DNA of 64,000 nt. It comes from Prostheceraeus crozeri (taxonomy: Eukaryota > Platyhelminthes > Polycladida > Euryleptidae). Within the stretch, counting starts at the first letter, position 1, and every line of letters starts with the position of its first letter. A program made the position numbers and the translations under genes. Below are positions 4,791 to 64,000 of the stretch, piece after piece. The DNA lies in NCBI GenBank assembly GCA_907163375.1, contig CAJQUW010003381.1, positions 496,001-560,000 of the forward strand, given 5' to 3'. The notes under the pieces were generated by a model. That model was not told the origin of the DNA, did no database searches, and saw only the letters and a program-made list of their open reading frames with translations.

Positions 4791-4794
4791 TAAA

Positions 4795-4812: not shown

Positions 4813-4817
4813 TAAGA

Positions 4818-45957: not shown

Positions 45958-46020
45958 TCTTCAATATCCTTTGCTTTAGAATGAATGATTTTGCTAATCA
46001 TACCAAGTTACTATTCAAAA

Positions 46021-46367: not shown

Positions 46368-46394
46368 CATTTATTCTACAGTGTAGAATAAATG
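46368..46394. repeat. 27-bp palindrome
   Basis: Perfect 12-bp arms CATTTATTCTAC / GTAGAATAAATG around AGT. Confidence 0.85.
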
Positions 46395-46460
46395 ATTCTT
46401 AGTAGATTTCATTTATCCCCAAAACTAGGATCCTGTACCATAGTTTATGACTTTCATCAC

Positions 46461-47124: not shown

Positions 47125-48174
47125 ACTTTAAACTAGTCCTCTGCTGGAATAGTGCTCCTGAGAATATGAACAGGAAACACAAAGGAAAGTTAGGATTTAA
47201 AGTTAATTGTCACATTTGAGCAGTTATTGAAAACAGGAGCAAAAGTCACCTTTCCTTGAAACTCCTGAGCACTTTCGCAGGTCTTGGTCGCTTCGTATAC
47301 TACCGCATCTATATTTTCAAACATCGGGGTTTCCTTACTTAACGTTGGAATCAATGAACTTTCACCTTGATCGCTTAGCTTCGCATTGCAGTACAGAATT
47401 TCTGTCATTCTTTCATTATAGTGTTCGGCAGTGAAATAGCATTTGTCAGCCTTTTCAGAGATACGACTTGTCTTCGTTTGGGCAATTTCCTTTGAAACTT
47501 GAATCAAAGGAAACCTTTGATTTCCTTTGAAAAAATTTCCTTGATCAGTCTCTGCTTTGCAGATCGGTGGAGGCTGGTATTTGAATAAAAGATTTCTTTT
47601 GAGTTTTCATTGTTTGAAAATGCACTCAAGTCTTCATTGTTTAGTGTTTTCATAAGTTCACGTGTGACTTTCTCTATGGCGTGAATTCTAAACGGACTTT
47701 GCTTGTACCATTTATCTCCTGTAGGGTTCTGCATAGGAGTCAAGTAAAAAGCATTGAGACCTTGAATTTTTTTACGATATGAAACATATAATTTGTACAT
47801 GGCGATTATGCATCTGTCTGAATTTTCTTTGTTTGGGTAAATGACTGTGGTCTTTGGCTCCATTCGACTACAATTTAAGCCAAACTTGTTGCTTTTAGAT
47901 GTTCTCTCTACATACCGCAAAGTTTCTTGTCCGTTCATGATTTCCAAGAACAACTGGGAGTTATCACCGTATTCGAGATCCCTATGTTCTTGACCGGCGC
48001 GTAAGGAAAGATGGACGCCCAGATGATATATGAGTGTATAAATAACTGTCTTGGGTTAGAATAACCAAATGATCCGTTCCGCCACAGCATTTCTTCGTGT
48101 TCGCACTTTATCACAGCCGCTCTTCTTGCGGGCTTCAGGTAACCCTCTCTTGCAGATAACTTCATCTGTGCGTC

Positions 48175-49546
48175 TAAGGCCGCTGTCACACAGGAAAAGG
48201 CGTCTTCCATGGCCCGTCTTCCGTTTTGGATTTCCCTTAAATTGCATGTAGAAAAGAATACAACCTATCACACAGAAAAAGTCATCTTCCATGGCCCGTC
48301 TTCCATAAGTCATCGCCCGTCGTCCATTACGCTGTCACACAGAAAAAGTCATCGCCCGTCGTCCGTCGGACAAAAGGCGTGAGAATATGCGGATGATGAT
48401 GATCTTTCCTAACATCCATCAGCCGTCACCCGCTAGACTGTTCTAAAATTAGAACAACGTGATCTGACGTCTGAGTAAAGATATAGAAAGCTGTGATTTG
48501 CAAAGAGAAGCAATGTATAAGAAAACAGCTCATTGTTCACCATGTCGGACTTTGATATTGAGGAAGATTGACACAAAATTCATTCTGGCCGGGTCCGGGC
48601 AGAAAATAGCGGCCCGGTTCCACCTATTATTGCAACCAAGACTTTTGACGGTGATATAGGCGAACAGTGTAGTCTGAAATGCATCAATTGCCTTTTCATC
48701 ATTTCGAACTTTTCATTGGTTGCATCTATTCATTAGTTCGTTACCTTTGGTTCATTTTGATGCAATGACGTGACTGTCCTTTACTAACTATGCTAAACGT
48801 ATGGTCATGTAAACTATAGCGGCATCTCTGATTGTTAAGGTTTTTTCTTAAATTAAACTAAATGCTTGAACATTTTGAAGATTTTTGCTGGTAGTGCCTA
48901 AATGCAATTTCAGCAAGTCTGCGTAACAAAATCGATGAGTAGGAACTTACCTCAATGTATCAAGTAAACGTTGTTCGGCGCCAATAGATGCCCTGTAATT
49001 CGATTGACCAGGGGTAATCCTCAGCTCGATCAGGGATAGTAACTCCGAAAAAGACCCATATGACATTCTTGTATAATTAAAAAATTTCTCGGGATCATCT
49101 TTCATCTTTGGGAATAATGTGTGGTACTCGCATTCCTGCTTATTGGCGAAAATCGGCCGAACCCAAGTTCGCCGTCTTTTCCTGTTTTCCATGCGTGTGT
49201 AGTAATACAGTATCACAGGATGTAGCCGATTGGCAGCCATCAGAACGAAATTGAATGAGCCCTGTCTTGTGTTAATCAGCATGAGAAAGCATTGGTAAAT
49301 CAAGACAGTAGTCATGAGACAGTAGTCATTAACAGCAAAAAAGGCGATGACGTATCGGAAATGGATTTCCCTAGAGCGACTGTAGAAGGTGAAAACGGGT
49401 GATGGACGATTGGAAAGTGGAAGACGGCAGATGAAAATCTGATCATCACGCCTTATGGAAGACGCCTTATGAAGAATGTGCAATGAGGCGAGTAACATGG
49501 AAGACGGGCCATGGAAGACGCCTTTTCCTGTGTGACAGCGGCCTAA
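48175..49546. mobile_element. PIF/Harbinger-type element with 45-bp TIRs and TAA duplication
   Basis: The element spans 48178-49543. Its 45-bp ends (start GGCCGCTGTCACACAGGAAA) are perfect inverted repeats, flanked on both sides by TAA (48175-48177, 49544-49546), the 3-bp duplication of the superfamily. Related CTGTCACACAG words recur inside near 48268 and 48330. The interior holds only a minus-strand N-terminal part of a Harbinger nuclease gene, so the copy is non-autonomous. Confidence 0.85.
48947..49225 (-). pseudogene. Harbinger nuclease N-terminal fragment
   Basis: The minus-strand frame holds 'RRRTWVRPIFANKQECEYHT', 'DDPEKFFNYTRMSYGSFSEL' and 'RASIGAEQRLLDTLR'. This is the conserved opening of HARBI1-like nucleases, which precedes their DDE core. 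It stops before any catalytic residue. It lies within the TIR element 48178-49543, supporting the superfamily call made from the ends. Its frame happens to read through into the interrupted recombinase, which gives a misleading 329-codon ORF. Confidence 0.8.
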
Positions 49547-50245
49547 CACTTTCCTACACTCCATAAATTCTTTATCCTTAAAAATGGACCATGATTTATT
49601 GAAAGTGTTATTGAAATGGTGCTGTATCATTGCAACCATTTCTTTTAGTGTCTGTGGAGGATACTTTTCATGATTCTCCTTCCTCACCTCGCACAAGAAG
49701 TAACGAAGGCAAAAGTTTAAGTCACTTGTACCAAACTCATCTAGATCTTTCAAAACTTTCAATCCACCATCTAGTCTACATCTCCACTTAGTGAACCAAT
49801 CTCTAAATATTTTCATTGGCCATTTAACTTTCTTTGCGGTGTTTAGTGGTATTCTGTTTTCAATAAAGCTATTAATATCGCTTTCATTTACTAGAACAAA
49901 TCTGTTGCTTGTTGACTGCATGATGACTAATATCAAAATGACGACCGTACAAAATTCAAATATATACAGTACCTAGAAATCATTATTTCATATCCAAACT
50001 ATGGATTACAGTATACATGTGCTATCACCTGCGTACGAGATTTACAAAGTACAAAAGTTACCACCTAGATACTCGAGAATACATCTACACGTATGTTTAT
50101 ATTTATGGAATAGCAAAATGACTTCATTTCAAAATATCATAAACACGGAGATATGGCAATTTTTTACATTTACGATTATAATGAATAGAAATTCCTTGGT
50201 AAATTCCTAGAAATTTCATAGAGCATAGCTCGTGAAATAAGTATA

Positions 50246-50344
50246 AGATATTCCATGATATTTCTGAGTGATATGTAAATATATCCCGAGAGCCGAAGGC
50301 TCGAGGGATTTATTTTAATCACTCAGAAATATCATGGAATATCT
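50246..50344. repeat. Palindromic element with 26-bp arms
   Basis: Arms 50246-50271 and 50319-50344 are perfect reverse complements (AGATATTCCATGATATTTCT...). The loop holds a second hairpin, gagccgaaggctc. It lies 165 bases upstream of the start of YR gene A. Confidence 0.85.
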
Positions 50345-50757
50345 CATATATACCATGATATTTTTTATGGGAGTTATTTAGATAACTCCCTCCCTTTGAT
50401 TTGAATTGTAAATTTGTTTGTGATCAACGCATCATAGAATTCTTATTGCGCGTACATGTAGATCTACTTCGGTTGCATTGACAATTTTAGTGTAAACATT
50501 TGCCAGACATGGATGGTAAATTGGGCATTGTCAAACCTCTGGTAGACCTCACTAATGGATTCATCGGCAATCACGATCCGAATATAATATCATATGATGA
50601 ATTTGAAACTATTGAAGATCTGTTCCCACTACTAAGTGATTTGCAAAACCACAACACGAATTACAGCAGATTTGCCAACTACTCACAACAAGAGCTAAAT
50701 GAATTGAATAACAAGAACACCAAAAAGCGCAATAAATGGGCAAATAAAATATGTGAT

Positions 50758-50895
50758 AGATATAGCACTTGAAGGGATGCTATATCATTTTCCTGCACGA
50801 GTTTTCTAGATATACGCACGAAGCGAAGCTGAGTGCGTATATCTATGAAAACGAGTGTAGGAAAATGATATAGTAACTCTTCAAGTGCTATATCT
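50758..50895. repeat. 138-bp palindromic element at the left junction of the insertion in YR A
   Basis: Outer arms AGATATAGCACTTGAAG (50758-50774) and its reverse complement (50879-50895). Inner arms pair through most of the length around a 'cgcacgaagcgaagctgagtgcg' centre. The design (long arms, GAAG-rich loop) resembles 50246-50344 and 11836-11900. Confidence 0.85.
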
Positions 50896-51247
50896 ATTTT
50901 ATACCATTTTCCATAAATATCTGTGACTAGCATTGGTCAGTATATGGACTCCTAGATATTTGATCTCTTAATTTTTTAAATCTCTTAAAAGAATGCAGGA
51001 TAACTTATTCATTTTCAAATCTGGAAAGTAAAGACAAGGTTGAATTTAACGATGAATGATCTCACAGAAGAACTTTTTCTCTCAATGGAAGGACATAACA
51101 CGCATAGACGATTCAAGAAAAGATCTGACGAAGAAATAAACAATATGATCCAAAATTCCAAACCAAAAAATACAGAAAAGTCAACAAAGTGGTGCATGAA
51201 AATCTTTAATGATTGGAAAGAAAATAGACCAGAAAATATTCCTGATA

Positions 51248-53170
51248 TACCGTATTTCTTCTAATAATCGCCCACCCTCAAATAATCGCCCAACCTCCAA
51301 TAAGCGCCCCTGTAAATAGAGTCGTATTCGATAATCGCCCAGCCTCTAATAATCGCCCAACCTCTAATAATCGCCCAGTTTCTAATATCCACTCATTTCA
51401 GTCTGCCAACTGATACTAGTTGCGCCTATGCGATAGCTATGGAAGCTACGTCTTATGTATGAGCCAGGTAGCCTAGTTTCTTCATATATTCGCACAACTT
51501 TACTGAGATTGTTCTGTATCCAGCCATGGACGTCACTTATAGTATGTCACTGATCGAGCAGACACCGCAGCAGTGATTGGTGTTCCCCTCCTTATTAATT
51601 TGATAAGATAGCGAATAGATGCCTAAGACTTTGCAACGCAGAATATTTCATGGCAGTCTATAGTTATCACGTCGAGATGGGCAAGTAGAAGGTTTACTCA
51701 CTAAAGTACAAGGCAGCTGCTACTGATTATTTGAAACACCATACGATATCTGACACCGCTAAAGTGTTTAATGTTGATAGGAAGCGCATCCGTGAATGGA
51801 GGGACAATGAAGAAAACATCAAAGAACAACTACAGAGTGGGAACACAGATCGCAAACGCGTTGCTGGTGGTGGAGCTAAGAAGAGATCCGAAGAGCTTGA
51901 AGAACGACTTCGAAATCGAATTCTCCAACATCGTGAAAGGAGGATGCATGTTTCCCGTAGGCGTGTGCAGCTGTGGGCCAAGGAAATGACCAATCATCCA
52001 GAATTCAAAGCTAGCAATGGATGGCTTGATAAATTTATGGTCATGGATGAACTATCTCTTTGGATGGAGCCAGTTTCTGAAACCACTGTCAATTTGAAAG
52101 GTGAGAAATCGGTTCCCATCTTGTCAAGTGGGAAGGAGAAGATGAGACTGACAGTAATATTGACAGCCAGAGCAAGTGGCAAGAAAGTGACACCGTTCGT
52201 CATCATTCCCAGTAAGCGACCCATAAAGGAGTTAGAGGCGATGACAGATCTTCACTTTGGTTATTCCAGTAAGTCTTGGATGAATGACGGAATGACTGAG
52301 AAATATTTGAAAAGTGTCATTGGTTCATTTGCATTCGCTCGACGCTGTATCATCTGGGATTCCCTCTCCTGCCACAAATCAAGTGCTACCAAGAAAGTAT
52401 TGAAGCAGATGCGAATGGACGCCATAATTGTACCATCTGGTTGTACCGGGTTGATATAGGCTCCCGACGTATCATGGAACAAATCCTTCAAAGCTAACGT
52501 ACGAAAGGAATATGAGAATTTCACATCCGTCAATGGTGACAATATCCCGAAGCCCTCTTTCTCTACCGTTGCTGGCTGGATTTCTCAAAGTTGGGATTCA
52601 ATCCCCGAAGAGCAGATTGCAAGATCAATGAAACAATGCGGAATCACATTGGAGCCAGATGGATCCGAAGACGAAGTCTTACATTGCTTCCATGTTATAG
52701 GCAACGAAGAAGGATTGCAGATTCTTCAAAAGAAACGAAGTGAGTACACCTCATGTGATCTTGATGCTACTTGTGATCTCGATGCTTCTAGCACTTACCT
52801 CAGTGATGATTCTATTTCCTTGTGATTCGGATGAATCTAATTAAGTGAAACAAGAATTCATTTTTGGAATGTCTCGTTTTTTCTTTCTGAGTGAGGGGCT
52901 TTTTATGATTAAATGCCTAGTGTTTACACGCGGTTTCTTTCTATCTAATATACATATAGGCCTACATAGGTAGGCCTGTATAGGAATATCTTAGCCTGTT
53001 TGCACGTAAATATTTGATTTCACATGAATTGGCATTTTTGGTGATATTGATATGCAGCTCGACAGAGTAATCGCCCACCCTCTAATAATCGTCCAACCTC
53101 TAATAATCGCCCATGTACATAGCGTCGAATTCGATAATCGCCCTGGGCGATTATTAGAAGAAATACGGTA
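51248..53170 (+). mobile_element. Pogo-like DNA transposon (1.92 kb, perfect 27-bp TIRs, TA)
   Basis: Ends TACCGTATTTCTTCTAATAA... (51248-51274) and its exact reverse complement (53144-53170), each including the TA target. Inside both ends lies a direct repeat of about 75 bp built from AATAATCGCCC units (51268-51343 and 53069-53143), a likely array of transposase-binding sites. It interrupts recombinase B without loss of bases and carries one degenerate transposase gene. Confidence 0.92.
51677..52827 (+). pseudogene. Pogo-like transposase (Brinker/CENP-B HTH plus DDE), degenerate
   Basis: An N-terminal Brinker-type helix-turn-helix ('AKVFNVDRKRIREWRDNEEN'), a CENP-B-type HTH ('MHVSRRRVQLWAKEMTNHPE') and a DDE domain. 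The D positions are 'MDELSLWMEP', 'CIIWDSLSCHKS' and 'APDVSWNKSFK'. Between 'NGWLDKFM' and 'MDE' about 60 residues typical of the family are missing. Stop codons interrupt the frame at 51686 (TAG, three codons after the ATG at 51677) and at about 52456-52458 (TAG, where CAG is expected). The tail is acidic and ends at 52824. It is inactive, yet the element ends are perfect, so it was probably moved in trans. Confidence 0.85.
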
Positions 53171-55195
53171 GTCGAAATGACCGACAATGAATTAAACAGC
53201 TGGCTGGCCCGATTCATATCGGAAGCATGTAAAGTCAATGGTGAAGAATACCCAGCCAAAACGCTTTATTTGATCGCATGTGGAATATTAAGACACTTAC
53301 GTGATAATGGAATACAAGATAAAAACATTTTAGACTTTCGAGATAACCGTTATACATACTTCACCAATGCTCTCGATAGTCGCATGAAAGATCTCACGTA
53401 TCGAGGTATTGGTATTGAAACGAAACAAGCAGATGTGTTTTCTGAAGCGGAAGAGGTCGAAATGTGGCAGAAAGGTGTTTTTGGAAATTGTTCAAGCGAA
53501 GTATTGCAATACACCGTATATTTTTATAATTGCAAATTATTCGGACTACGTGGAAGGGAAGAGCACCACGACCTGCAAGTCAATGACTTCATCATTGGAA
53601 ATGATAGTGATGGAAAAGTGTATATTAAATACACCTCAAGATCAAGAAAAAATTTTAATGGTGGTCTAAGGCAAATACATTTTAAACCAAAAGCTATCAA
53701 ACATTATGACACTGAAGGGAGAAAGTCTATCATATCTTTGTACAGAGAATATTTTCAAGCATTGGGGAAAACTGAAGGCCCATTCTACTTGAGGACTCTT
53801 CCAAACTTAATGAACTCAATTCGCTTTGGCAAACAGCGTGTTGGAGTGAATACACTCTCAAAAATTTTACCTATCCTTGCAGCAAGGGCGAATTTGAAAG
53901 GGAATTATACTAGCCCTTCGGGTAAGGCTACATGTGCTACAAGACTGTCAGAAAATAGTCTCGACGACAAAATAATTAAAAAGCTACTCGGAAATCGCTC
54001 ATCGAAAGGATTAGAAGCATACAAACGAAGACGAGATGATGATTACAATGCCTCTATTGTTTTGAATCCTCCCGAAGTTTCCCCAAATTCAATCCCAACC
54101 CCAGAGTTAAAACCGAATTTTGAAGATTTAGAACCGACTTTCTTCAGTGAAATAATGGAATGTGGACCCCCTCCTCAATCTTCGAACAGAAACGACAATC
54201 AAAATTATTCTGGAATCGCACAACCAGCTCAGAACTTTTATAATTGTTACTTCTATGTTTACAGAAAGTAATGTGCATGTACATTTTGTATATAAAATTC
54301 TTCGTTATACATAGATATCATAAGCTTCGTTATACTGCACACTTTTTAGTTATACTGCACTGTTTTAAGGTAGTTATAGCACTCTAAAATACATATCACT
54401 GGGAACTGAAAATGGTATAACTGAATCTTGGAGAAAAGAACGACTGGATTATGTAAATTCAAACATATGTGACTTATCCGATGATGCATTATGCCAACTT
54501 ATGACTAAGTTCATTCACGAAGTAAGGAAATCAAATGGTGAAAGATACCCAGGCAGATCTCTCGTGTCGATTGTTGCGGGAATACAATCACATATTTCGC
54601 TTACACGAAAAGTCGACTTCTTTCGAGATGAAAAGTTTTCAGCGGTGACAGTGAGTCTAGATTCATCGATGAGAATATCCAATGAAAGCGGTGCCAGTTT
54701 GAAATCGAAGTCGGCTGATGTGATAAGTGAAAATGAGGAAAAATTATTATGGAACCATGCAATGGGGGCCTCCGATGGACAGTCATTGTTATATGCTCTG
54801 TTTTACCTGAATGGATTGAATTTTGCTCTTCGAGGCGGTGAGGAACACGTACATCTTCTTATTGAGCAATTTTCTTTTGAAGTTTGTGACGGCAAACGAT
54901 GTCTAGTCTACCGTGAAAAACATTCGAAAACAAATTCAGGAGGTTTGAATAACTTGAGGCACAAAACCAAGGAAGTAGTACATTTTGAGAATGTATCGAA
55001 CAGATCAAGATGCCGTGTAACTTTGATGGAGCTTTTCCTCAGTAAACGACCTCAAAGCTCAAATCGCTTCTATCTGCAACCTTTAAAAAACCAAACAATT
55101 TATGTTGGTACACATCTAAGCCAATAGGCAAGAACAAGCTCAACAAATTTATGAAATCAATACGTGATCAAGCTGGAATAGATTCAAGCAGCTAA

Positions 55196-55268
55196 AGTAA
55201 CCATAGTAGGACAGTCTAGCCCCTTTCCACCGCATTTGCACTTAAGTACATGCCCTGCTCTGTCATCG
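55196..55268. other. Possible left boundary of the virus-like cassette
   Basis: Sequence after the truncated recombinase A and before the first promoter repeats. If the cassette is an inserted element, its terminal repeat should start near here ('agtaaccatagtaggacag'). The other end is outside the window, so this is untested. Confidence 0.3.
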
Positions 55269-55398
55269 GAGCACACACCCACGCATCAGAGCACGGAGCA
55301 CACGCCCACACATCGGCGCACTTGGGGTAAGAGCACGGAGCACCAATCGGAGCACGCGGCGCCGAGCACGTGTGATGAGTCACAGCAAGTTATATAAG
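55269..55398 (+). promoter_or_regulatory. Promoter P1: seven GAGCAC boxes, E-box, AP-1 site and TATA
   Basis: GAGCAC occurs at 55269, 55289, 55296, 55331, 55338, 55350 and 55364. GGAGCACCAATCGGAGCAC (55337-55355) also holds a CCAAT. CACGTG (55367-55372) and TGAGTCA (55376-55382) precede TATATAAG at 55391. The layout is a compact polymerase II promoter driving the gene at 55432. Confidence 0.7.
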
Positions 55399-55431
55399 GA
55401 AGACGCTGCCAGAGAAAATCATTCTCATCAT

Positions 55432-55857
55432 ATGTCGACAACATTAACGGGTAGATTACGCCCTCTGGCTGAGACACGTCATCCCAAGGAGGAGATATCC
55501 TATACACCTTATTCATCGAAAGACTTTATTGTGGAACGAGACTGTAATACACTGTATATTATTCCGACAAAGGAGAAGAGTGTGTCGTTAGAGAAGATTA
55601 TTTCAGAGCTTCGTATTCAGTTGCTGAATGTAATACTGTATGGACCACGCTTCTTGTTTGATATTCGATCATCTGCAAAGTTCCCCAAAGGTGCACTGGA
55701 CGTGTCCTATCGCTATTTGAACATTGGTGACGATTGGGACGTGGAAGAACTGATTGATTCATTGCAGAAGAAGTTACGTTCTCAACTGGAGTGTCGTTAT
55801 TTTGGAGGAATCTTGTGTATGCAGATTGACATTGGGTTTGGTTCATTGTTTACGTAA
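55432..55857 (+). CDS. Virus-like cassette protein V1, unknown (141 aa)
   Basis: No family recognised. The start at ATG 55432 is chosen because the TATA box at 55391 lies inside the longer open frame, so upstream codons would not be transcribed; ATG follows TATA by 41 bases. The protein has a polar N-terminus, 'NTLYIIP', 'LEKIISELRIQ', an acidic stretch 'GDDWDVEELIDSLQKK' and ends in 'GGILCMQIDIGFG'. A similar order of motifs occurs in V6 (59186-59581), suggesting a duplicated gene family. No membrane segment or signal peptide. The next gene starts 25 bases after its stop. Confidence 0.6.
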   Translation: MSTTLTGRLRPLAETRHPKEEISYTPYSSKDFIVERDCNTLYIIPTKEKSVSLEKIISELRIQLLNVILYGPRFLFDIRSSAKFPKGALDVSYRYLNIGDDWDVEELIDSLQKKLRSQLECRYFGGILCMQIDIGFGSLFT

Positions 55858-55882
55858 GATACATTATCTGAACCACGATATA

Positions 55883-56797
55883 ATGGAGCCACCAACAAAG
55901 AAGAGGCGAACCACAGTCCGTCCCCGCCCTCAACCCTATTATGAGTGCGAGTTTTGCAATAAACGCTTCCGACTGTTTTCACAATGCATCCGTCATGGAC
56001 GCAAGGAGATAGGGAAGGAGTATTCCGATCGTTGTGGAAAATGATGGACTACCGATCATTGCTGCTCTCTGGATAGGGGTTACTGGGGCGACAAGGAGAG
56101 TGAGTTCACCTGCCTGCTTTGCAAACAAGACTATAATATGGAAGCTTACCATAAACATCCATGTGTGGGTCGGTGCAGGTACTGTGATGAGAAGATTCAG
56201 GAGGAGGAGAATGAATGGAATGAACATTTATGTCCCTATTTGAGCATGTATATTCCCACCGAACCCTTGGACCCGAATCGCCCAGTGGAGTCGGAGAGTA
56301 CGAATTCATATCCGTACGACTTGTCAAAAGTGAAGTTGGCACGCTGTCCCTGGTGTCATAACATGTACCAAGCATTCTTCTTATGGGAACATGTTTGCAG
56401 ACATCATAAGGAGGTGCGTGGAAGCAATCTGACGTGGAGCAAGACGAATGAGGCATGCGACAACTTTGTCTATATGTGTGTCTGTGGTGAGATGCTGCAC
56501 CGTGACGTGGAGGAAGAGAAGGTCCGTCAATTTGTCTCGCTGCATAAGGAGCATATGGCCAAGAAAATATGGAAAAATCAGTGCGAAAAGTTGAAACGGA
56601 TATATGAGAGTCAACCGAATCCACCCAAGGAAGTGAATAGTGTCCCCCAAGCCTCGCTTCGACCAGAGAATAGAAATCGGGACCCACGCAAATATTCATT
56701 TGAATTTAGTAAGAAACGAGGGAGACCTCTAAAACCCATTGTTTTGAAGAACCAATTGAATTGGTTCACGTATAATGTAGATTTGGATGATAAATAA
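55883..56797 (+). pseudogene. Zinc-finger protein V2, interrupted by one in-frame TGA
   Basis: A multi-finger protein, probably nucleic-acid binding. From ATG 55883 it opens with a basic 'PPTKKRRTTVRPRP' (nuclear-signal-like) and a first finger 'CEFCNKRF'. A TGA at 56042-56044 interrupts; the same frame continues through 'FTCLLCKQDY' to the stop at 56797. Counting from Met 56138, fingers include C13/C16 and H30/C32. A distinctive double module follows: C70-x2-C73-x11-H85-x4-H90, then C114-x-C116-x19-H136-x2-H139. The module recurs in V8 with the same spacings. The C-terminus is basic. AATAAA overlaps the stop (56793-56798). The TGA may be inactivating, read through, or removed by splicing. 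Confidence 0.7.
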
Positions 56798-56877
56798 ATG
56801 TAGTGATCAATCTCCTATTTTTGTGACTATGGGAAGTGTCAGAACTAAGTAAGGACATCTAGCCTATCACGGTAATC

Positions 56878-57150
56878 ATGCAACGTGGAGGTATTTATCG
56901 CGGAAGCCGTCGTCAGAAAGGGGGAATTTACCGTGGGAGTCGAAGACAAAAGGGTGGAATCTACCGCGAGAGTCGTAAACAAAGAGGAGGCATCCTCCCA
57001 TTTTTACTCCCCCTCGTCCCTGCACTTATTGCCGCAGGGAAAGCTGCAGCGTTGGGAGCAGCGGGTGCAGCCGGTGCCGCAGGCGTAAGTGCTTTAGCGA
57101 ATAAAATATCAGGAGGAGGAAAACGTCGAAGGAGACGTCATCATCGCTAA
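56878..57150 (+). CDS. V3: adenovirus/adintovirus X-like small core protein (90 aa)
   Basis: A tiny, extremely basic protein with a hydrophobic centre. Three 11-residue repeats GGIYRGSRRQK (residues 4-14, 15-25, 26-36) are followed by 'GGILPFLLPLVPALIAAG', an Ala/Gly-rich helix with repeated GAA units, then 'KISGGG' and the tail KRRRRRHHR. The architecture (GG-hydrophobic-Ala-rich segment plus Arg clusters) is that of the X/mu-type core proteins of adenovirus-lineage viruses, which bind genomic DNA in the virion. 'ISGG' at 77-80 fits the (M/I/L)-x-G-G consensus cut by adenain-type proteases. ATG 56878 is the only suitable start. Confidence 0.7.
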   Translation: MQRGGIYRGSRRQKGGIYRGSRRQKGGIYRESRKQRGGILPFLLPLVPALIAAGKAAALGAAGAAGAAGVSALANKISGGGKRRRRRHHR

Positions 57151-57183
57151 ACCAATCATGTTGTACACCACCCTAGGGACGGG

Positions 57184-57190
57184 TATATAA
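57184..57190 (+). promoter_or_regulatory. TATA box of V4
   Basis: TATATAA 39 bases upstream of ATG 57223; an ACCAAT lies upstream at 57151-57156. Confidence 0.65.
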
Positions 57191-57222
57191 GTCGAGACAC
57201 ACAAGGTGAGATTCATTTCACG

Positions 57223-58226
57223 ATGCGTCGGATTCAGCACTTGGGCGAGCTCATGCAAGGTTCTTATACCATTACATTTGATCATCCTAAAGTACAACAA
57301 TGGTGGGTGGAGCAGAAGAAGCCGGTGCGCAATTTCATCGTATTTGATACGGAAGGAGATCCCATGCAGGAAGTCGCTGCCATTTGGTGTCATTATACGC
57401 CCAGAGATGATAAACCGACCGGATATGTGACCATTACATCGCGCTTCCATGACTTTATATCAAACATGAAACATCGGGGTGTGATGTTTTTGCGACTCAA
57501 TTTATTCATGGTCTCAACCCACGTGTGATTGGGAAATGTGGTGCAGAAGAGAGTGCGATTATTCACCGTTTTAATTGCTGGGTCCTTGAAATGACACGCA
57601 AGTATGGAGACGCCGAACTGATTGTAGGGAATGGATTATCGGAAATGGAAAGAGCTTGGTTGAAAAGCATAAAACTCTTGGAAAAAGTGACCATGGATAG
57701 TATTTCTCTCCCCGAATGGTCTCAACGCATTGACTCTCATTGGAATATATTCGCCTCATGTATGCGGGATAGTGAACTGTATAGACTTGGCTATAAGGAA
57801 CATACGTGTCGCGGATGTCACTGGATGAATCATTCCCAGTATGAAGGGAAAGAAGCGTACCGTCGAGCCCTGTTACATTTACGCCGAGGGAAAGCACTCA
57901 CAGAAACGCAAGCTGCCAAGGTACAGTATGGGTACCACTGTGCGCTGTCAGATGTGGTCGAGATTCTCCTTCATTATTGCTTTGAACTACACTATCGACT
58001 TTATGTGCATACGCTGTATTTAAATTATGATTCATGTGAAGCTGCATGGGCCTGGACCAAGATTGATCACATCACTGTGATGCATGAATCAACCATGGTG
58101 GACAATGGACAACTCCACAAGTCTTACATTGTTCATTATTGTAACTTCAGTGACTATGCCGAACATCGTACCTTGTGCAAGAATAATGCATGTTGTGAAA
58201 TAACTCAAGAAAGTGCATCTCTATAA
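57223..58226 (+). pseudogene. V4: DEDDh-type 3'-5' exonuclease, one frameshift
   Basis: Reads as a DnaQ/TREX-like nuclease. The first frame (57223-57528) has ExoI 'NFIVFDTEGD' with Asp42 and Glu44. The second (from about 57486 to 58226) has an ExoII-like 'VGNGLSEMERAWL' and ExoIII 'YHCALSD', whose H-x4-D spacing marks the DEDDh class. The frames meet near 57480-57486, where one base appears lost beside a T run. A Cys/His cluster 'HTCRGCHWMNH' and a C-terminal region without known domain follow. The ExoII acidic residue is not certain. AATAAA overlaps the stop (58225-58230). It could be a genuine break, a sequence error or a programmed shift. Confidence 0.65.
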
Positions 58227-58435
58227 TAAAATGTTATTCCAATCACCTGTTATTTTTGATAATCATTGACTTGGGAATGATAGCATTTGTCAATTTTATA
58301 AACCATTTTCAACATTAAAAATAATGCTAACTTGTAATTTTATGAACGATTTCCAATCTTAAAATTCAATCATTCATTTTAACTTCTATTCTATCATGAT
58401 ATGTCCTATAACCCAGTCACCCTTGAATAAAATAG
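58227..58435. other. Short AT-rich spacer between convergent genes
   Basis: Two imperfect direct repeats of 'aattttat(a/g)aac(c/g)atttcaa'-type sequence at about 58290-58370. No ORF. Confidence 0.5.
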
Positions 58436-58972
58436 TCATAGCTTACCATGTATGTTTATTGAGAAGAAATCAAGATAGAAAGAATAATTACACATATATT
58501 TAAAAACCCAGTCACTGACTTCACTTATAAAGTCCACACTATCCAAGTTGGCGATGGCTTCGTTGATGTTATCCAATTCAGTGCGACAGTTGAATCTACT
58601 GCTGATATCCGTAAGAGGTTTGCGAAAGGGACGGCGAGTGGATGGAAGATCGAGTCCAAGATAGTCATCGATGCTAGGAGGAATATTCTCCTGCTCATCG
58701 TAAAGAAAGTCAAGTTCCCAATTCTCGCTGATCAGACTTGACGATCCGGGATCGGTGACGGAGGGTGACGGTGGGATGGGAAATGGTCCATCAATGGTGG
58801 GTGGCGTCGGAGGTAGGGAATACGGTCCATCGGGATCGGGAATGGAACCCCAGTGGGATGGCAGATCCGTTGGGAAATCATCTTCTTCTGGGGTCGGTGG
58901 TGGAGTGTCTGGGATCACAATCGCCTCTTCTTCTAACGCGTTCCGAACCCTTAATCCGCTGAGATCGACCAT
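58436..58972 (-). CDS. V5: acidic proline-rich protein with degron-like motifs (178 aa)
   Basis: The only minus-strand gene of the cassette. The first about 75 residues are acidic and Pro-rich ('IPDTPPPTPEEDD', 'PIPPSPSVTD') and look disordered, like a transactivator or adaptor. Later come 'DEQENIPPS', close to a KEN-box context, and 'RKPLTDISS', an R-x-x-L-x-D-I destruction-box-like motif. Both types are recognised by APC/C in cell-cycle proteins. ATG 58970-58972 follows a minus-strand TATAAAGC (59021-59028) at a normal distance. The last about 30 codons are hydrophobic and may be out of the true coding end (a GGTAAG lies there). No homologue recognised; function inferred only from motifs. 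Confidence 0.6.
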   Translation of the reverse strand: MVDLSGLRVRNALEEEAIVIPDTPPPTPEEDDFPTDLPSHWGSIPDPDGPYSLPPTPPTIDGPFPIPPSPSVTDPGSSSLISENWELDFLYDEQENIPPSIDDYLGLDLPSTRRPFRKPLTDISSRFNCRTELDNINEAIANLDSVDFISEVSDWVFKYMCNYSFYLDFFSINIHGKL

Positions 58973-59020
58973 CCTCTTGTATGTTCACGAGTGTTATGAA
59001 TGCGGAACATTTTCAACTTG

Positions 59021-59160
59021 GCTTTATAGTTTTGCAGATGCTCCATTCCCTTGCTCCGAGCATTAGACGTGCCCCATTCCATGCTCGGAGCACAGAACGG
59101 AGCAATGGGTGTGCCCCATTCCATGTTCGGAGCATCTATCGATTGGAGAACTAGGTAAAA
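59021..59160. promoter_or_regulatory. P2: divergent promoter between V5 and V6 with tandem GAGCA repeats
   Basis: A 24-bp unit (GTGCCCCATTCCATG then YTCGGAGCA) occurs at 59069-59092 and 59111-59134. Further GAGCA(C/T/A) words lie at 59058, 59088, 59100 and 59130. A minus-strand TATAAAGC at 59021-59028 serves V5. The V6 side has only a weak A/T-rich box ('gtaaaaatgg', about 59154). Confidence 0.6.
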
Positions 59161-59185
59161 ATGGATAAACGTTCAAGACACATAC

Positions 59186-59581
59186 ATGATGGAAGACTTT
59201 CACGTGTACACCTATCCAAATCAGCTCATTATTTATCCGAAAACGTCATGTCAACCGCACGCGATGTTGGAGAAAGTGATTCCCTATGTGAAGGAGAAGA
59301 TCAAAGTAAAGCCTGAATGTGAACTCTCCATGGATACATTCACGATTTATGAATACAAAAGAAATGGTTCTCCACCATTGATGGGTGCCAGTGAACGTTA
59401 TTATGAAAGTGACATCCAAGAAATGGATGACTATTTATCCTCACTGAGGAACGTATGGGACTATGAATTTATGGACAGTGATAACAAAGAGATTCTTGGT
59501 GTCTATTGTATAACGTTTAATTTTGAATATATCTCTGTTGGATGGACATCAGAAAAAGAATATGTAAGCGATACAGACTAA
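59186..59581 (+). CDS. V6: unknown acidic protein, probable paralogue of V1 (131 aa)
   Basis: No known family. Motif order matches V1: 'NQLIIYPK' / 'NTLYIIPT', 'LEKVIP' / 'LEKIIS', an acidic 'DIQEMDDYLSSLRN' / 'WDVEELIDSLQKK', and a C-terminal beta-like 'GVYCITFNFEY' / 'GILCMQIDIGF'. Two adjacent ATGs (59186, 59189) open the frame; the first is chosen. AATAAA at 59587-59592 is six bases after the stop. No membrane segment. It shares its upstream region with the divergent V5. Confidence 0.6.
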   Translation: MMEDFHVYTYPNQLIIYPKTSCQPHAMLEKVIPYVKEKIKVKPECELSMDTFTIYEYKRNGSPPLMGASERYYESDIQEMDDYLSSLRNVWDYEFMDSDNKEILGVYCITFNFEYISVGWTSEKEYVSDTD

Positions 59582-59731
59582 GTATGAATAAAGAAAATGT
59601 CGTCGTATGAATCATGTTGCTTTTCCATATTATAAGTATTCTGCTATTGGGGTTGATAGATTTGGAAAAACATGCTACTTGTACTCCTTTTTCTTCTGAG
59701 AGAGATTGTACGCATACTCACCGCGATGAGT

Positions 59732-59739
59732 AACTATTT
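59732..59739 (+). promoter_or_regulatory. TATA-like box upstream of small basic ORF and V7
   Basis: TATTTAAG. A start about 30 bases on would precede ATG 59775 and ATG 59858. Confidence 0.45.
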
Positions 59740-59744
59740 AAGTT

Positions 59745-59912
59745 ATGGATCCTCACGCTCTCTCAAATAAGATCATGTTACTTCTGCCCTATTATCGAAA
59801 AAGACGACATCGCCCTATTCGGACAAGACACTCTCGAAAAAGACGACCACGTGGAAGATGGACATCACACCCACAGAAAGTTCGACATCTCCTTCTCACC
59901 AAGCGCGGGTGA
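59745..59912 (+). CDS. Small Arg-rich protein (55 aa, or 45 aa from ATG 59775)
   Basis: A short frame overlapping the start of V7. Eighteen of 55 residues are Arg or Lys, concentrated in 'YYRKRRHRPIRTRHSRKRRP'. Such protamine-like composition is typical of virion DNA-condensing proteins, and the neighbouring V3 is also of core-protein type. ATG 59775 suits the TATA-like box at 59732 better than ATG 59745. Short, so chance cannot be excluded, although the clustering of Arg codons is striking. Confidence 0.4.
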   Translation: MDPHALSNKIMLLLPYYRKRRHRPIRTRHSRKRRPRGRWTSHPQKVRHLLLTKRG

Positions 59913-60307
59913 AGATCCTTATTGATTTTTGGTTCGATGAACGCATCCGAGGCAATGATATCCCCACATTAGAAGAGTTTACCGACACGTCCACCGTCTA
60001 TTTGAATCAATTGGTACTGAATGACCGCTATTCCATCGTGGGACGTGTGTATTTACTCATGGCTATTTTTGAGGATGATGTTTTGTATGAGGACACACTA
60101 TGGAAGTTTATGAATGAGAAACATTTGAACTATGTACAAGAACTGTATCATAAACGTGTGATTTCAGCAGCAAGTCTTATTTATATCAAAGAGACATTGA
60201 ATCGTATCTGTGCTCATTTCAGTATTTTGTTTCAATGGCCAACGAATGTATTTAAGCATGCACAGGATCACACAACAAAAATCAACCATGAAGGGAGGAA
60301 CGCGTGA
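59858..60307 (+). CDS. V7: unknown, helical (149 aa)
   Basis: No family recognised. A Ser/Thr/Pro-rich first 15 residues precede a mostly helical protein ('QARVKILIDFWFDERIRGND', 'YSIVGRVYLLMAIFEDDVLY', 'NEKHLNYVQELYHKR'). There are no metal-binding motifs and no clear membrane segment despite hydrophobic helices. The stop overlaps the ATG of V8 (60288) by 20 bases, so the pair may share a transcript with reinitiation. Start at ATG 59858. Confidence 0.6.
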   Translation: MDITPTESSTSPSHQARVKILIDFWFDERIRGNDIPTLEEFTDTSTVYLNQLVLNDRYSIVGRVYLLMAIFEDDVLYEDTLWKFMNEKHLNYVQELYHKRVISAASLIYIKETLNRICAHFSILFQWPTNVFKHAQDHTTKINHEGRNA

Positions 60308-61556
60308 AAGTGAAGAGACATTGACGTTGCGAAAATTGAGAATAACCCTATGTCCTGTCTGTAAATGCCCTTATCAAAAAGATCGTCTGAGAAGGCATAT
60401 TTATAATTCACACCATCTAATATATAAAACAAAAAAAGAGATAAAAGCAAGTGAAGAGTTCATCTATGCATGTCTATGCGGGGAAACACTCGATGGAACG
60501 GTGGATAGGAAGACAGCTCAACAATTTGCGCGTCGACATACCCATATTTTAAACGAGCGAATGGAGGGAGAAAATGTGAGAAAACTCAAGTATATTATTC
60601 AACAGCATGTTCCGAGATCCTCTTTGAAGGTGTCCTCTACGTTGACAGGACAAGATCGTCAATTATCACCCACCGCACGTCGTGCAACCCCCTTGCGACC
60701 CCCTCAACCTATGAATACAGATTTGGATGCAGACGATAGTCTAGAAGCACTCATTCGACCTTCTCCAGCGGATCATCGCGCCTTAGCAACACCTGATCCG
60801 TCTCACGCTATGCTGCAAGCTGTCGTGAAAAGTATGGTTGACGATCGAGCCAGAGTGGATGCTCCCCCGGATCCCACCCATACGGTCCATCAAATACAAG
60901 AAGAATGGAATCGATTGCCGCCCGATGTGTTAGCCATGGCTGCGAATAAGATTGACATGAGTCCTCTATCGTTAGAGAATATTCAACCTACACTAAGTCA
61001 TGTGACATTTGATAACTACCCAGGTCCTGTCAATGATCACAACAGTTATGTCCAAACCATGTCGAACACAGTGGGAAATCCAAAGGTTGATCAACAAGAA
61101 TCAAGAGAACCTCGCCAACAACACTCGGTGGGGGTAGGAACCCCTCAACAACAACACTCAGTGGGGGTAGGAACCTCTCAACAACCCATGGACACACACC
61201 CCGTGGAGGAAAGAATGTTTTACCCAGTCAATTCACCTGTCATTGACAACTCCCACGAGTACATTATTCAACTGAACAATTTGAAAAACAGCGCCATTGT
61301 TCAACTGTTGAACGATTCTATTCGTCTCCATGAACGTCATTTAAATGCTCGCAAACGCATCTTGCACGTGTTGGAAGATGCATTTAATCAACACATTCAT
61401 GAACCCAATCGTACAGATGGCAATGGAGACTATTTGGATGAGACATTGGAAAGCATGCGTGACTTGCTGACTCAAAAGGAAGAGTTTATTGCCCACTTAA
61501 CCAACCAAAATGCAGACGTCCACGCACGCTACATGAATTTGGTGAACACCATGTAA
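60288..61556 (+). CDS. V8: zinc-module protein with disordered middle and helical C-terminus (422 aa)
   Basis: ATG 60288 (context aaccATG) is preferred over further upstream codons, which overlap V7. The N-terminus carries C22-x2-C25-x11-H37-x4-H42 and C62-x-C64-x19-H84-x-H86, the same double module as V2. The middle (about 105-310) is Pro/Asp/Gln-rich and disordered, with a 13-residue tandem repeat 'QQHSVGVGT(P/S)Q' near 280-305. The last about 110 residues are helical and coiled-coil-like ('IQLNNLKNSAIVQLLNDSIR', 'ESMRDLLTQKEEFIAHLTNQ'), suggesting oligomerisation. A DNA-binding structural or regulatory role is inferred. No homologue recognised. Confidence 0.65.
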   Translation: MKGGTRESEETLTLRKLRITLCPVCKCPYQKDRLRRHIYNSHHLIYKTKKEIKASEEFIYACLCGETLDGTVDRKTAQQFARRHTHILNERMEGENVRKLKYIIQQHVPRSSLKVSSTLTGQDRQLSPTARRATPLRPPQPMNTDLDADDSLEALIRPSPADHRALATPDPSHAMLQAVVKSMVDDRARVDAPPDPTHTVHQIQEEWNRLPPDVLAMAANKIDMSPLSLENIQPTLSHVTFDNYPGPVNDHNSYVQTMSNTVGNPKVDQQESREPRQQHSVGVGTPQQQHSVGVGTSQQPMDTHPVEERMFYPVNSPVIDNSHEYIIQLNNLKNSAIVQLLNDSIRLHERHLNARKRILHVLEDAFNQHIHEPNRTDGNGDYLDETLESMRDLLTQKEEFIAHLTNQNADVHARYMNLVNTM

Positions 61557-61591
61557 ACTAAGTTATGTGGGATAGAGGATGATAGACAAGA

Positions 61592-61987
61592 ATGACATGT
61601 CAGTGCGAATCATGTTCAAGTCGACGACAGGACTTTACCAATGTACTGAAATCCCTAAGTTCAGGGATAGGATGCTCGAAAAAGAAAATTAACCGTCATC
61701 TCGATCAATTGCCTGAGGAATATGTCAAGGATATGCAAGCACTCATGAGCAGAATGCGAGAGAATCCAGGGAAATTAACGCCTTTACAGCACGAGTTTAT
61801 TCAATCTTACAAAGGAATTCTCCGCAAATTTGTGAAACCATCCCCTCAAACTCGCAAATACTTGGGTCAAAAACGGAAATTTAACAAGAAACAAATCCCC
61901 TTCGCACAAGCCTATGCCATGGCATATCACGATAATCCAGCAGCTTTCAAACAAGCCTTACATGCATCGATCGGCTCCAAACACTAA
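61592..61987 (+). CDS. V9: unknown Cys-start basic protein (131 aa)
   Basis: Opens with a Cys cluster 'MTCQCESCSSRR', then a basic helical protein ('KKKINRHLDQLPEEYVKDMQ', 'KYLGQKRKFNKKQIPFAQAY'). Net positive and without membrane segments, so a nucleic-acid contact is plausible but not shown. It starts 36 bases after V8 and ends 34 bases before V10, in keeping with tight packing. No family recognised. Confidence 0.6.
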   Translation: MTCQCESCSSRRQDFTNVLKSLSSGIGCSKKKINRHLDQLPEEYVKDMQALMSRMRENPGKLTPLQHEFIQSYKGILRKFVKPSPQTRKYLGQKRKFNKKQIPFAQAYAMAYHDNPAAFKQALHASIGSKH

Positions 61988-62020
61988 GTAAACCATACCC
62001 ACGTCATCAACAATATCATC

Positions 62021-62383
62021 ATGGACAATGTTCAATCCATAGTGAACACACTTTCAACAGCCAACGGAGGAGATTTAAAATGTTCACTCATTGGTTCATT
62101 CAAAGAAACCCTATCACAATTCTTTACACTCGTCATATTCATTTTGGTTACCCTCTTATCTGGTCGAAAAATGATGAAAGATATCAAAAAACGTAAAGAT
62201 AGTAGAAAACCCTTACTCGATATGGAAGTCGTCAACTATGATATATCCAAAACGCCTATACTCAACCCCACCAAACCGCACAATGAAATTCCCATGAAAT
62301 CGAACGATTTACCGAAGAGTGTGAATAAGTCACGTTCACACAGTAAAATTCCTATGAAATCAAACGATGTACCGAAGATTTAA
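62021..62383 (+). CDS. V10: single-pass membrane protein with repeat tail (120 aa)
   Basis: A short N-terminus (1-33) is followed by one hydrophobic segment 'FFTLVIFILVTLLSG' (34-48), a basic stop-transfer region 'RKMMKDIKKRKDSRK', and a tail with two 20-residue repeats starting IPMKSND (about residues 90 and 110). The topology suggests N-out, C-in. The repeat is part of a DNA array that continues after the stop. No family recognised. Several viruses of this lineage carry small membrane proteins, but that is only an analogy. Confidence 0.6.
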   Translation: MDNVQSIVNTLSTANGGDLKCSLIGSFKETLSQFFTLVIFILVTLLSGRKMMKDIKKRKDSRKPLLDMEVVNYDISKTPILNPTKPHNEIPMKSNDLPKSVNKSRSHSKIPMKSNDVPKI

Positions 62384-62610
62384 AGGTTGATTTTCCCATG
62401 ACATCGTTAAAAATACTACGGATTTGATGTGTTATTTTCCCATGATATCAATCGATTCACTGTGACTTTGAAGAACACACTCTGTTACAAATCCTCGTAA
62501 AATCAGGTGATTTATCGAGAATTCTGAGGTACTTTTCCACACCAAATCGACCAATGTTATCGTAAAATGACTCAGCAAATTCCCATGAAATCAAGCGTTA
62601 TCTCGTGAAT
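62288..62610 (+). repeat. Decaying repeat array of 'ttcccatgaaatc' units
   Basis: Units begin near 62288, 62348, 62392, 62436 and 62579. The first two (60-bp spacing) encode the V10 tail, the next two are 44 bp apart and non-coding, and the last is isolated. Confidence 0.6.
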
Positions 62611-62675
62611 TTGACCTACAAAAAGGGACAAGCCCCGTACACCACCAAAAATGAATGATTCATCGTGAATTTCAT

Positions 62676-62753
62676 GGAGCACCAATCAGAGCACTTGTAG
62701 GCGTGGGTGTCAACCAATGAGAAGAAATTTTCCCACGCTCAACTCTATATAAA
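62676..62753 (+). promoter_or_regulatory. Promoter P3: 19-bp GAGCAC/CCAAT module and TATA
   Basis: GGAGCACCAATCAGAGCAC at 62676-62694 differs from the P1 module at one base. A second CCAAT lies at about 62713-62717 and TATATAAA at 62746-62753. TCATTC around 62776 is an initiator candidate about 30 bases on. It drives the gene at 62784. Confidence 0.75.
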
Positions 62754-62783
62754 CTGAGCCATTTCAGTCATTTTCATTCAGTC

Positions 62784-64000
62784 ATGGTTAAACGTACGAA
62801 CACGTTGGAAGCTCCTCTCGCGAAGGTGAAAGTCACGTATTCGTCAGATACACCGACATCGAAGCCAGTCTTTGTTGAAGCGACGGAACCCTATTTCCAT
62901 ACGAATGGGAAAGCCGAGAAGAACTACCTTACCAAGGCACATACACAGTTGGAGCCTCTGCCCATCACACGTCTGGTATTGGACAAACAATGGGGTATCA
63001 CTGGATATTATCCGATTCGCGGAGAGAATGCGATGATGAATGCGATGGATTGGCAATCACGACGAGACATCTCAAAACTCGTGTTTGCCACGGGATTTTA
63101 TGGATGGCGTGCACAAACGTACAATAACACTGGGTACGGTTCCGATCAACTCACCTCCCTCTTCACCATTTCTCGAGCCGTCTCACACGATCTGGAGACG
63201 TTGGAAGATGCGATACAATCCCTCTACAAACAAGTCCAACCCGAATCTGCCTACAACTTCACCTCCTGTCTCGGTTATGTACACAAGAAATCGGCCTACG
63301 ACAGTGTCTTTATGAAGCTGAAGCAGGACACACCCATCTTCCTGATGAAGGAGAATGGAAAGAACAAGAAGGTTAGTTTGGCCAATATTGGACATCTTCT
63401 TTCCAATCTCAAGGCGAATACCTTCCTTCAAGCAAATACCATCTTCCGCGTCACAGTCATATACTGTAATCCACAGACAAAGACTCTGAAACTGTGCTTT
63501 ACCGTGGATCAAATCCAAGTCCGTATCAAACAGGCGGAGGAAGGTCAGAGCACAGCGGTGGAGGAAAAGAAGAAGAAGAAGACAAAGCTGACACTCGATA
63601 TAAAGAAGGCACACATTCCCTCCAGTGGTTTATTTAATCTGATACACATGGTGCAACCTAAACAGGACATTGATTGGGAGGAACTCAATCACTTTATAGA
63701 GGATCTCGATCATCTCTCCCAATCAGAGGATAGCACTGTACTTATGAAAGAAAAGGAGGATGAGATGACAAGCATGCTTTCTCAAAGGTGGAGTGCTCAA
63801 CCCACGGAGGAGGAGGATTGGAAGAGGATGCGGACGGATTATGCCAAGGCGCAAGCACTCGGTGTGCACATTCGCATCCGGGAAGAGTCACACGCGCTGC
63901 ATATCTTTGACGGTAATCAAATACAAGCCGAGAAATGGATCAATCGATTCCTCGAAATGTTCAAGGATATGGTGGAACACAAACAGGAGAGTCAGTGGTA
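62784..64000 (+). CDS. V11: large unknown protein, open at the right edge (at least 405 aa)
   Basis: ATG 62784 is 38 bases after the TATA box. The frame stays open through the edge, so the protein is partial. The first about 60 residues are polar. A well-folded-looking region follows ('LDKQWGITGYYPIRGENAMM', 'LVFATGFYGWRAQTYNNTGY'), then an acidic/lysine-rich linker with KKKKK (about 260-268), and a helical acidic part with many Glu. A beta-rich 'RVTVIYCNPQTKTLKLCF' lies near 230-247. I recognise no family; a virion or replication protein of the element is possible but unsupported. It is the strongest GC and coding signal of the cassette. Confidence 0.7.
   Translation, partial: MVKRTNTLEAPLAKVKVTYSSDTPTSKPVFVEATEPYFHTNGKAEKNYLTKAHTQLEPLPITRLVLDKQWGITGYYPIRGENAMMNAMDWQSRRDISKLVFATGFYGWRAQTYNNTGYGSDQLTSLFTISRAVSHDLETLEDAIQSLYKQVQPESAYNFTSCLGYVHKKSAYDSVFMKLKQDTPIFLMKENGKNKKVSLANIGHLLSNLKANTFLQANTIFRVTVIYCNPQTKTLKLCFTVDQIQVRIKQAEEGQSTAVEEKKKKKTKLTLDIKKAHIPSSGLFNLIHMVQPKQDIDWEELNHFIEDLDHLSQSEDSTVLMKEKEDEMTSMLSQRWSAQPTEEEDWKRMRTDYAKAQALGVHIRIREESHALHIFDGNQIQAEKWINRFLEMFKDMVEHKQESQW

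Follow-up and report, generated by a model that had tools for sequence, protein, structure and literature searches.

What kind of genetic entity is the dense run of genes at the right end of this 64,000-nucleotide stretch of the Prostheceraeus crozeri genome (G000, contig C2806, positions 496001–560000; hereafter the window), and what does it encode? We counted 11 genes from 55.2 kb to the window end, mostly on the plus strand and with one divergent gene (58436–58972, −), which confirms the compact cluster described in the original prediction. That prediction, made from the window alone, took the cluster for one arm of an adenovirus-lineage, Polinton/adintovirus-like element, and it is supported by the integrase, the protease, the terminal inverted repeats (TIRs) and the target-site duplication described below. 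Following the contig 30 kb to the right (pieces L009, L010 and L011) and searching the assembly (2,048,925,868 bases in 14,165 contigs) showed that the cluster is the left third, and the left end, of a complete integrated element of Polinton/adintovirus type. The element spans 24,637 bp (C2806:551205–575841), starting at window position 55205 and ending beyond the window, and its hallmark genes and hallmark candidates, which the prediction expected to the right, lie in the next 16 kb. Neither outcome named as refuting the prediction, an absence of viral hallmark genes over the next 20–30 kb or a match of every ORF to ordinary intron-bearing host genes, was observed. We propose, with a probability of roughly 70%, that this integrated virus-transposon supplies its own TATA-binding protein (TBP) for the promoters of the element. 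The observations behind this proposal are the TIRs, a 6-bp duplication, insertion into a Crypton, an rve integrase with a chromodomain, an adenain-like protease, a high copy number and a TBP gene lying between a PolB-like gene and a RING gene.

Ends and target site of the element

Long TIRs, a 6-bp target duplication and a length of about 25 kb are Polinton traits. The left TIR, 224 bp long (55205–55428, +), holds CGGAGCA repeats and a TATATAAG box, and its partner is found as an inverted match at L010:5618–5841 (C2806:575618–575841). The two are 97.8% identical (220 of 225 inverted positions, one position belonging to the target duplication, hence a 224-base repeat; 98% by genome search), and their five differences suggest that the insertion is probably not brand new. 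On both flanks stands the 6-bp duplication AACCAT (55199–55204 and L010:5842–5847). The cluster had been located rightly, with its left edge put at 55196 instead of the true 55205.

The sequence interrupted by the element is a Crypton-type tyrosine-recombinase gene with a DUF3504 domain, a host transposon outside the element, the 5′ part of which lies at 54369–55198 (+; Pfam DUF3504, 4.4e-22). When the element is removed in silico, the flanks join into a DUF3504 recombinase frame, with one stop beside the junction and an earlier frame change, and two other DUF3504 copies align straight across this empty-site junction; the tyrosine recombinases beside the cassette are therefore its target. The same result bears on the idea that these recombinases are the integrase of the cassette, which would make the whole a Crypton–virus hybrid. 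Two same-strand DUF3504 open reading frames (ORFs) directly upstream of the cassette speak for such a hybrid, as does a reported genome that joins a tyrosine recombinase with adintovirus virion genes (PMC11071296, in excerpt). Both ORFs, however, lie outside the TIR, the recombinase frame resumes beyond the element, and the element has an rve integrase of its own, which makes the hybrid extremely improbable; the empty site refutes DUF3504 as the integrase of the element. Endogenous nimaviruses carry tyrosine recombinases (PMC10871703, in excerpt), which brought a nimavirus or another large DNA virus into consideration; this idea was dropped once the TIRs and the rve integrase had appeared.

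Hallmark genes and hallmark candidates of the right arm

Beyond the window, the integrase with a chromodomain lies at L009:1716–2804 (Pfam rve 1.1e-11, Chromo 5.3e-8) and also matches solved integrases in PDB (8e-11), as expected of a Polinton. The adenain-like protease (L010:2–496; Peptidase_C5, 1.8e-4) represents the adenovirus-type cysteine protease, passing the Pfam cut-off narrowly with 21.7 bits against 21.3. The searches suggested in the original prediction for adenain and for TIRs were thus successful, and those for PolB, a packaging ATPase and a capsid yielded candidate genes, recognised by motif, P-loop or weak alignment, with no family match above cut-off. These candidates are a PolB-like gene of 1304 aa (L010:1696–5610, −), carrying motifs that we take to be PolB motifs A, B and C, an ATPase-like gene with a P-loop (L009:364–840, second frame 819–1529) and a capsid-like ORF of 403 aa (L009:8377–9588). 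The capsid-like ORF aligns at 18–22% with ORFs adjoining other TBPs (5e-4 to L021) and has no match above threshold in Pfam, PHROG or PDB. It stops about 50 residues before its counterparts in other classes do, and the same frame continues past the stop (L009:8377–9700), so it may be interrupted in the window copy.

The TBP gene and its relatives in the genome

On the minus strand of the right arm the gene order is PolB, TBP, RING. The TBP gene (L010:1104–1679, −; Pfam TBP, 1e-10) follows the PolB-like gene after a gap of 16 nt and overlaps the RING gene (L010:620–1123, −; Pfam RING, 2.2e-10) by 20 nt. Its product, here called class A, has two TBP stretches, or lobes, and scores 41.8 bits against a Pfam cut-off of 22.9. 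Polinton-type genes adjoin diverged TBPs of at least three further classes in the same genome (E-values of 1.8e-23 for class B, 1.7e-18 for C and 2.2e-21 for D; 66.6–82.6 bits), and these are 27–31% identical to class A. The best match of the class A protein alone to solved TBPs is 0.0029; a profile of seven TBPs from classes A–D matches them across the two lobes with E-values from 1.2e-18 to 4.2e-12, those of archaea ranking first.

The genome holds many such genes. All of the best 150 places scored among 10,982 candidates with the Pfam TBP model exceed the cut-off, nine of them with stops; four entries (L012, L013, L014 and L020) have the appearance of exons of the host TBP or of a host-like copy. 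For class A, the best 150 places scored among 9,593 candidates are 98–100% identical, and 149 have no internal stop. This gives at least 296 non-host TBP places (150 of class A and 146 from the Pfam list, the absence of overlap being judged by open-frame length and place). The 16 of these 146 loci that we read fall into classes B (three), C (six), D (six) and E (one). By eye, capsid, protease or PolB tails stand beside the TBP in 12 of the 16, the others (L019, L029, L030 and L031) all being of class C; the PolB tail in L025 scores 2e-33, the capsid-like ORF in L021 5e-4, and the Ulp1-type protease in L016 passes the cut-off (8.4e-5). The TBP frames of classes B, C and D share sequence with a second long ORF, read in a different frame of the same strand (L022:1213–2089, L016:936–1749 and similar loci), and the two may be overlapping genes.

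Alignment with host TBP (L012, L014) indicates that three of the four positions that we take to be the intercalating Phe are retained in classes A–D, the first Phe of lobe 1 being replaced by Pro. All four Phe are typical of cellular TBP without being family-defining. Both TFIIB-contact glutamates of the C-terminal lobe, the meaning of which we take from PMC7221094 (in excerpt), are retained in classes A–D, as ExE before (L/F)FP, a motif also seen in the class E piece; in class A it reads ExELFP.

Host TBP exons are present in the same genome (L012, 2e-42), which lends some support to the view that the TBP genes are host retrocopies or paralogues that adjoin Polintons by chance. Yet the Polinton TBPs share the Pro, absent from host TBP, and look like one diverged set (in an alignment, not a tree), the PolB–TBP junction is present in 30 of 30 class A loci, and the TBP of the window copy lies between the TIRs. 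Chance proximity of host copies is thus very improbable. The L013/L020 locus (C3829:151570–151938) is a host-like diverged TBP copy interrupted by a stop; it may be a pseudogene or a paralogue of TBP.

Copy number and decay

Only the best candidates were scored, so all copy counts are lower bounds. The last ORF of the window cluster was found in at least 103 places (103 scored of 552 first-look candidates), 91–100% identical and, in 95 of 103, without an internal stop. The TIR was found in at least 40 places (40 scored of 808 candidates), with pairs 23–25 kb apart on contigs C4442, C1676, C9091, C6602, C8255 and C8343. The genome therefore contains at least 100–150 copies of the element (103 by the last ORF, 150 by the TBP gene). 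The window copy itself is decaying, with a frameshifted exonuclease gene and a stop in zinc gene 1, and has intact relatives elsewhere (P0002, P0003 and P0004, described below). Copy number, decay and the TBP of the right arm could not be seen from the window alone.

Promoter elements and proposed mechanism

The TATA boxes noted in the original prediction are present. TATATAA lies 38–45 nt ahead of the ATG in gene 1, the exonuclease gene, the last ORF and PolB (38–41 nt in the first three), the boxes of gene 1 and PolB being the two TIR copies. The element pieces hold nine copies of the motif where 2.4 are expected, and 100 shuffles gave up to 10, so that the count is not significant; its regular position, not its number, is the telling point. 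Repeats of the GGAGCA type occur in three places: a cluster of four (CGGAGCA) ahead of the promoter in the TIR (55267–55354, +), a second cluster of four in the divergent intergenic region (59052–59134), and a GGAGCAC repeat with the TATATAAA box of the last gene (62673–62753, +).

A second motif, ACTA(A/G)GTA, is seen five times in the element against 0.52 expected (largest of 100 shuffles, three); because it was picked after looking, its enrichment tests are optimistic. Four of the five copies sit 33–38 nt before an ATG (those of the Arg-rich X-like protein, the gene at 59186, the small membrane protein and the 290-aa ORF), the fifth has no gene at that distance downstream, and variants stand at −35 of the gene at 61592 and at −34 of the capsid-like ORF. 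Across the whole window ACTAAGTW occurs 10 times against 3.7 expected, which none of 100 shuffles reached. Enrichment of the short ACTAAGT within the element was not clear (five seen, 1.7 expected, shuffles up to six), and although the ACTAAGT and TATA elements are conserved from copy to copy (six of eight loci aligned upstream), this is uninformative as evidence of function, since control stretches were equally conserved.

Based on these observations and on what is known of the family, we propose the following hypothetical scheme. The element would replicate from its TIRs by protein priming, form capsids and insert by means of its integrase, all three steps being taken from family knowledge. 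The close same-strand packing of PolB, TBP and RING, together with the lack of TATA(A/T)A within 150 nt of the TBP or RING start, suggests that the three genes form one unit, which would be driven by the TATATAAG promoter of the right TIR, and TBP is probably expressed together with the polymerase. The viral TBP would bind the element's promoter boxes and bring in TFIIB and RNA polymerase II from the host; we infer host TFIIB because both TFIIB-contact glutamates are kept and no TFIIB is found among the Pfam matches. An own TBP would free viral transcription from a limited or regulated host TBP.

The two promoter types could also reflect an early-to-late switch through the viral TBP in this 25-kb virus-transposon lineage, an extension that we consider doubtful. 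An early set (PolB–TBP–RING, gene 1, the exonuclease gene and the last ORF), with TATATAA boxes and GGAGCA repeats, would be readable by host TBP. A second set, likely including virion genes, lacks TATA and has boxes of the type ACTA(A/G)GTA where a TATA box would stand, 33–38 nt before the ATG, and would be served by the viral TBP. Such a scheme would amount to a pared-down version of the TBP-based late system of herpesviruses, with host TFIIB. It is weakened by the finding that, in classes B and D, the protease and penton-like genes inspected have no ACTAAGT element in front of them, apart from a single chance-like match at a class D locus.

Several points weigh against an element that supplies its own TBP. 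A TATT-type box, TATTTA, lies 43 nt before the TBP start, and TBP may have its own promoter. Lobe 1 of the viral TBP lacks one intercalating Phe, and the proposed recruitment of TFIIB is read from two residues. The PolB label comes from motifs, size and position, the 1304-aa protein matching no Pfam polymerase model at E ≤ 1 and nothing in PDB, and the capsid and penton labels come from weak matches and recall. The ATPase-like gene has its P-loop, and its matches (AAA_14 2e-4, Pox_A32 0.025, FtsK 0.041) are all under the Pfam cut-off. The same holds for the protease matches of L022 (0.01) and L021 (0.093), so that one of three proteases tested in other classes passes. In favour of the proposal, the ratio of nonsynonymous to synonymous polymorphism (pN/pS) among 30 loci (L032–L061, ranked by TBP similarity and including the window copy) points to purifying selection on the PolB C-terminus (0.12) and on RING (0.25); the value for TBP (0.01) is biased because the loci were picked by TBP similarity. 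In the Pfam-ranked sets it is 0.40 for class C (six loci, three with stops), 0.40 for class D (six, one) and 0.45 for class B (three, none), which suggests that the TBPs of classes B–D, with stops in 4 of 15 copies, are under mild constraint only. The last ORF gives 0.64 (eight loci). These values say that the elements descend from lineages under constraint and then decay, and are no proof of present function.

As a rival reading, the element would be an ordinary Polinton whose TBP-like protein either is a relic or has been turned into a DNA-bending or packaging protein, with no part in promoter choice. In favour of this, the viral TBP is far diverged with one intercalating Phe gone, constraint is mild in classes B, C and D, and the TATATAAG boxes look suited to host TBP. 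We nevertheless regard such a relic or repurposed protein as unlikely, given that two TBP stretches persist in four classes, that the TFIIB-contact glutamates are kept from A to D, and that 149 of 150 class A copies are open.

Comparison with known systems

With the Polinton/Maverick elements and adintoviruses of animals the element shares long TIRs, a 6-bp duplication, a length of about 25 kb, an rve integrase with a C-terminal chromodomain and an adenain-like protease, together with candidate ATPase-like and PolB-like genes. Unlike them, it has TBP, RING, a putative exonuclease of DEDDh type and two genes derived from the zinc module of the PolB-like gene, and its capsid-like ORF gave no match to a known family. 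The C-terminal chromodomain on the rve integrase is an adintovirus trait, and adintovirus criteria further include a PolB with an N-terminal OTU-like domain and a hexon that BLASTP can identify from those of reference adintoviruses (PMC11071296, as far as excerpted).

A TBP is otherwise met in other lineages of double-stranded DNA viruses. Those that bear one are large. TBP-like proteins are described for phycodnavirus and poxvirus cases (PMC7221094) and in megavirus chilensis (PMC11464507), and TBPs occur sporadically in mobile elements of the alga Cymbomonas that putatively derive from mirusviruses (PMC10675990), each source being used in excerpt. According to these excerpts, the DNA-contact Phe are largely kept, as in the element, nearly all of the lineages pair TBP with a TFIIB of their own, none being found in poxviruses, and in the Cymbomonas elements no gene for a DNA polymerase, a packaging ATPase or a double-jelly-roll capsid could be recognised. 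In contrast, the element described here measures 24.6 kb, keeps the TFIIB-contact glutamates and has no TFIIB among its Pfam matches. The TBP-like proteins of beta- and gammaherpesviruses, such as BcRF1 of Epstein–Barr virus (EBV; PMC4893493, in excerpt), offer a functional analogy, in that a viral TBP works with host RNA polymerase II. They have very low similarity to TBP and, according to published abstracts, act with five other viral proteins at TATT boxes, whereas the homology of the element's TBP is plain by sequence and it has no known partners.

Our limited literature searches returned viral TBPs in large-DNA-virus lineages and none for Polintons or adintoviruses, which is no proof of absence as subscription papers were mostly outside their scope. 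A Polinton-type element with its own TBP may be new. Even small, 25-kb members of the Polintons may control promoter choice themselves, and the TBP is kept across diverged classes in one genome. At least 296 non-host TBP places in one animal-type genome would provide a natural test of TBP function and of the origins of viral TBPs. No RNA polymerase subunit is among the Pfam matches of the element. It therefore presumably relies on the RNA polymerase II of the host, and would be a simple system for questions about what a second TBP can do.

Further genes of the element

The original prediction held that most of the genes match no known family. In line with this, Pfam and PHROG gave no convincing match for the proteins of the window cluster, PHROG no useful match at all, and scans of viral contigs with the last ORF, the zinc genes, the exonuclease, PolB, TBP and the capsid found nothing. 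That the ORFs are not due to chance is indicated by proteins from metagenome contigs that match three of them at 93–95% (P0002, P0003 and P0004).

Gene 1 (55432–55857, +; frame open from the ATG at 55375), with no Pfam match above cut-off and no assigned function, starts just inside the TIR, mirroring the PolB start at the opposite end. Zinc gene 1 (55883–56797, +) has an in-frame stop just before 56045 in the window copy and an intact relative of 304 aa, P0004 (95%). Its paralogue, zinc gene 2 (60288–61556, +), is open from the ATG at 60246, its start being set by the 94% identical relative P0003 (414 aa). The two genes, the zinc-module proteins of the prediction, are paralogues (7e-12), and over 105 residues P0004 is also 47% identical to the zinc module at the N-terminus of PolB (1e-31). 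The element thus appears to have built additional genes from copies of its polymerase's zinc module, and these are perhaps regulators of the TIR or of promoters. Paralogy of gene 1 and the gene at 59186 was not supported (BLASTP E 0.47).

The exonuclease gene (57223–58226, +; TATATAAG at −39) is frameshifted in the window copy. Its intact relative P0002 (333 aa) matches the C-terminal piece at 93% and the N-terminal piece at 100% over 79 residues. The DEDDh label proposed earlier agrees with motifs read by eye; the intact homologue matched nothing in Pfam or PDB, and the enzyme is best called putative. Two other labels fared similarly, in that the ORFs exist and the names have no Pfam match above cut-off. 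The Arg-rich protein with a Gly/Leu/Pro/Ala-rich stretch (56878–57150, +; ACTAAGTA element at −34), which also has no PHROG match, presumably resembles adenovirus core protein X. The other is the small membrane protein (62021–62383, +; ACTAAGTAA element at −38), with one hydrophobic stretch.

The remaining genes of the window have no assigned function: the divergent Pro-rich gene (58436–58972, −; TATAAAG at −56), the gene at 59186–59581 (+; ACTAGGTA element at −36), an ORF that overlaps zinc gene 2 (59858–60307, +), a small basic protein (61592–61987, +; ACTAAGTTA element at −35) and the last ORF, which runs from 62784 to 64000 (+) and on to L009 base 307 (528 aa in all) and has no relatives in a set of 5.8 billion proteins, PDB, viral contigs or phages. 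Between the integrase and the capsid-like gene of the right arm lie, in this order, ORFs of 432, 126, 540, 102 and 290 aa. The 432-aa ORF (L009:2814–4112) contains an internal tandem duplication of roughly 40–50 residues (CVYHLSLKDVVRIHTRLSIHRKQ...), perhaps damage of the window copy.

Flanking transposons

The DNA to the left of the element, predicted to be gene-poor host sequence, is transposon-rich rather than simply gene-poor, most ORFs of at least 120 aa belonging to recognisable transposons. A BEL/Pao-type retrotransposon with four long reading frames occupies window positions 4794–9963, and a DDE_3 transposase domain lies at 39 kb. At 51248–53170 there is a Tc5-type transposase remnant with a perfect 27-bp inverted repeat at its edges and internal AATAATCGCCCA minisatellite repeats. 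Within 11 kb (44689–55127), on both strands, lie four Crypton-type tyrosine recombinases with a DUF3504 domain and a fragment bearing a QRICH1 domain, and some of these are broken. A further DUF3504 copy lies about 38 kb to the right (L011:8844–9665).

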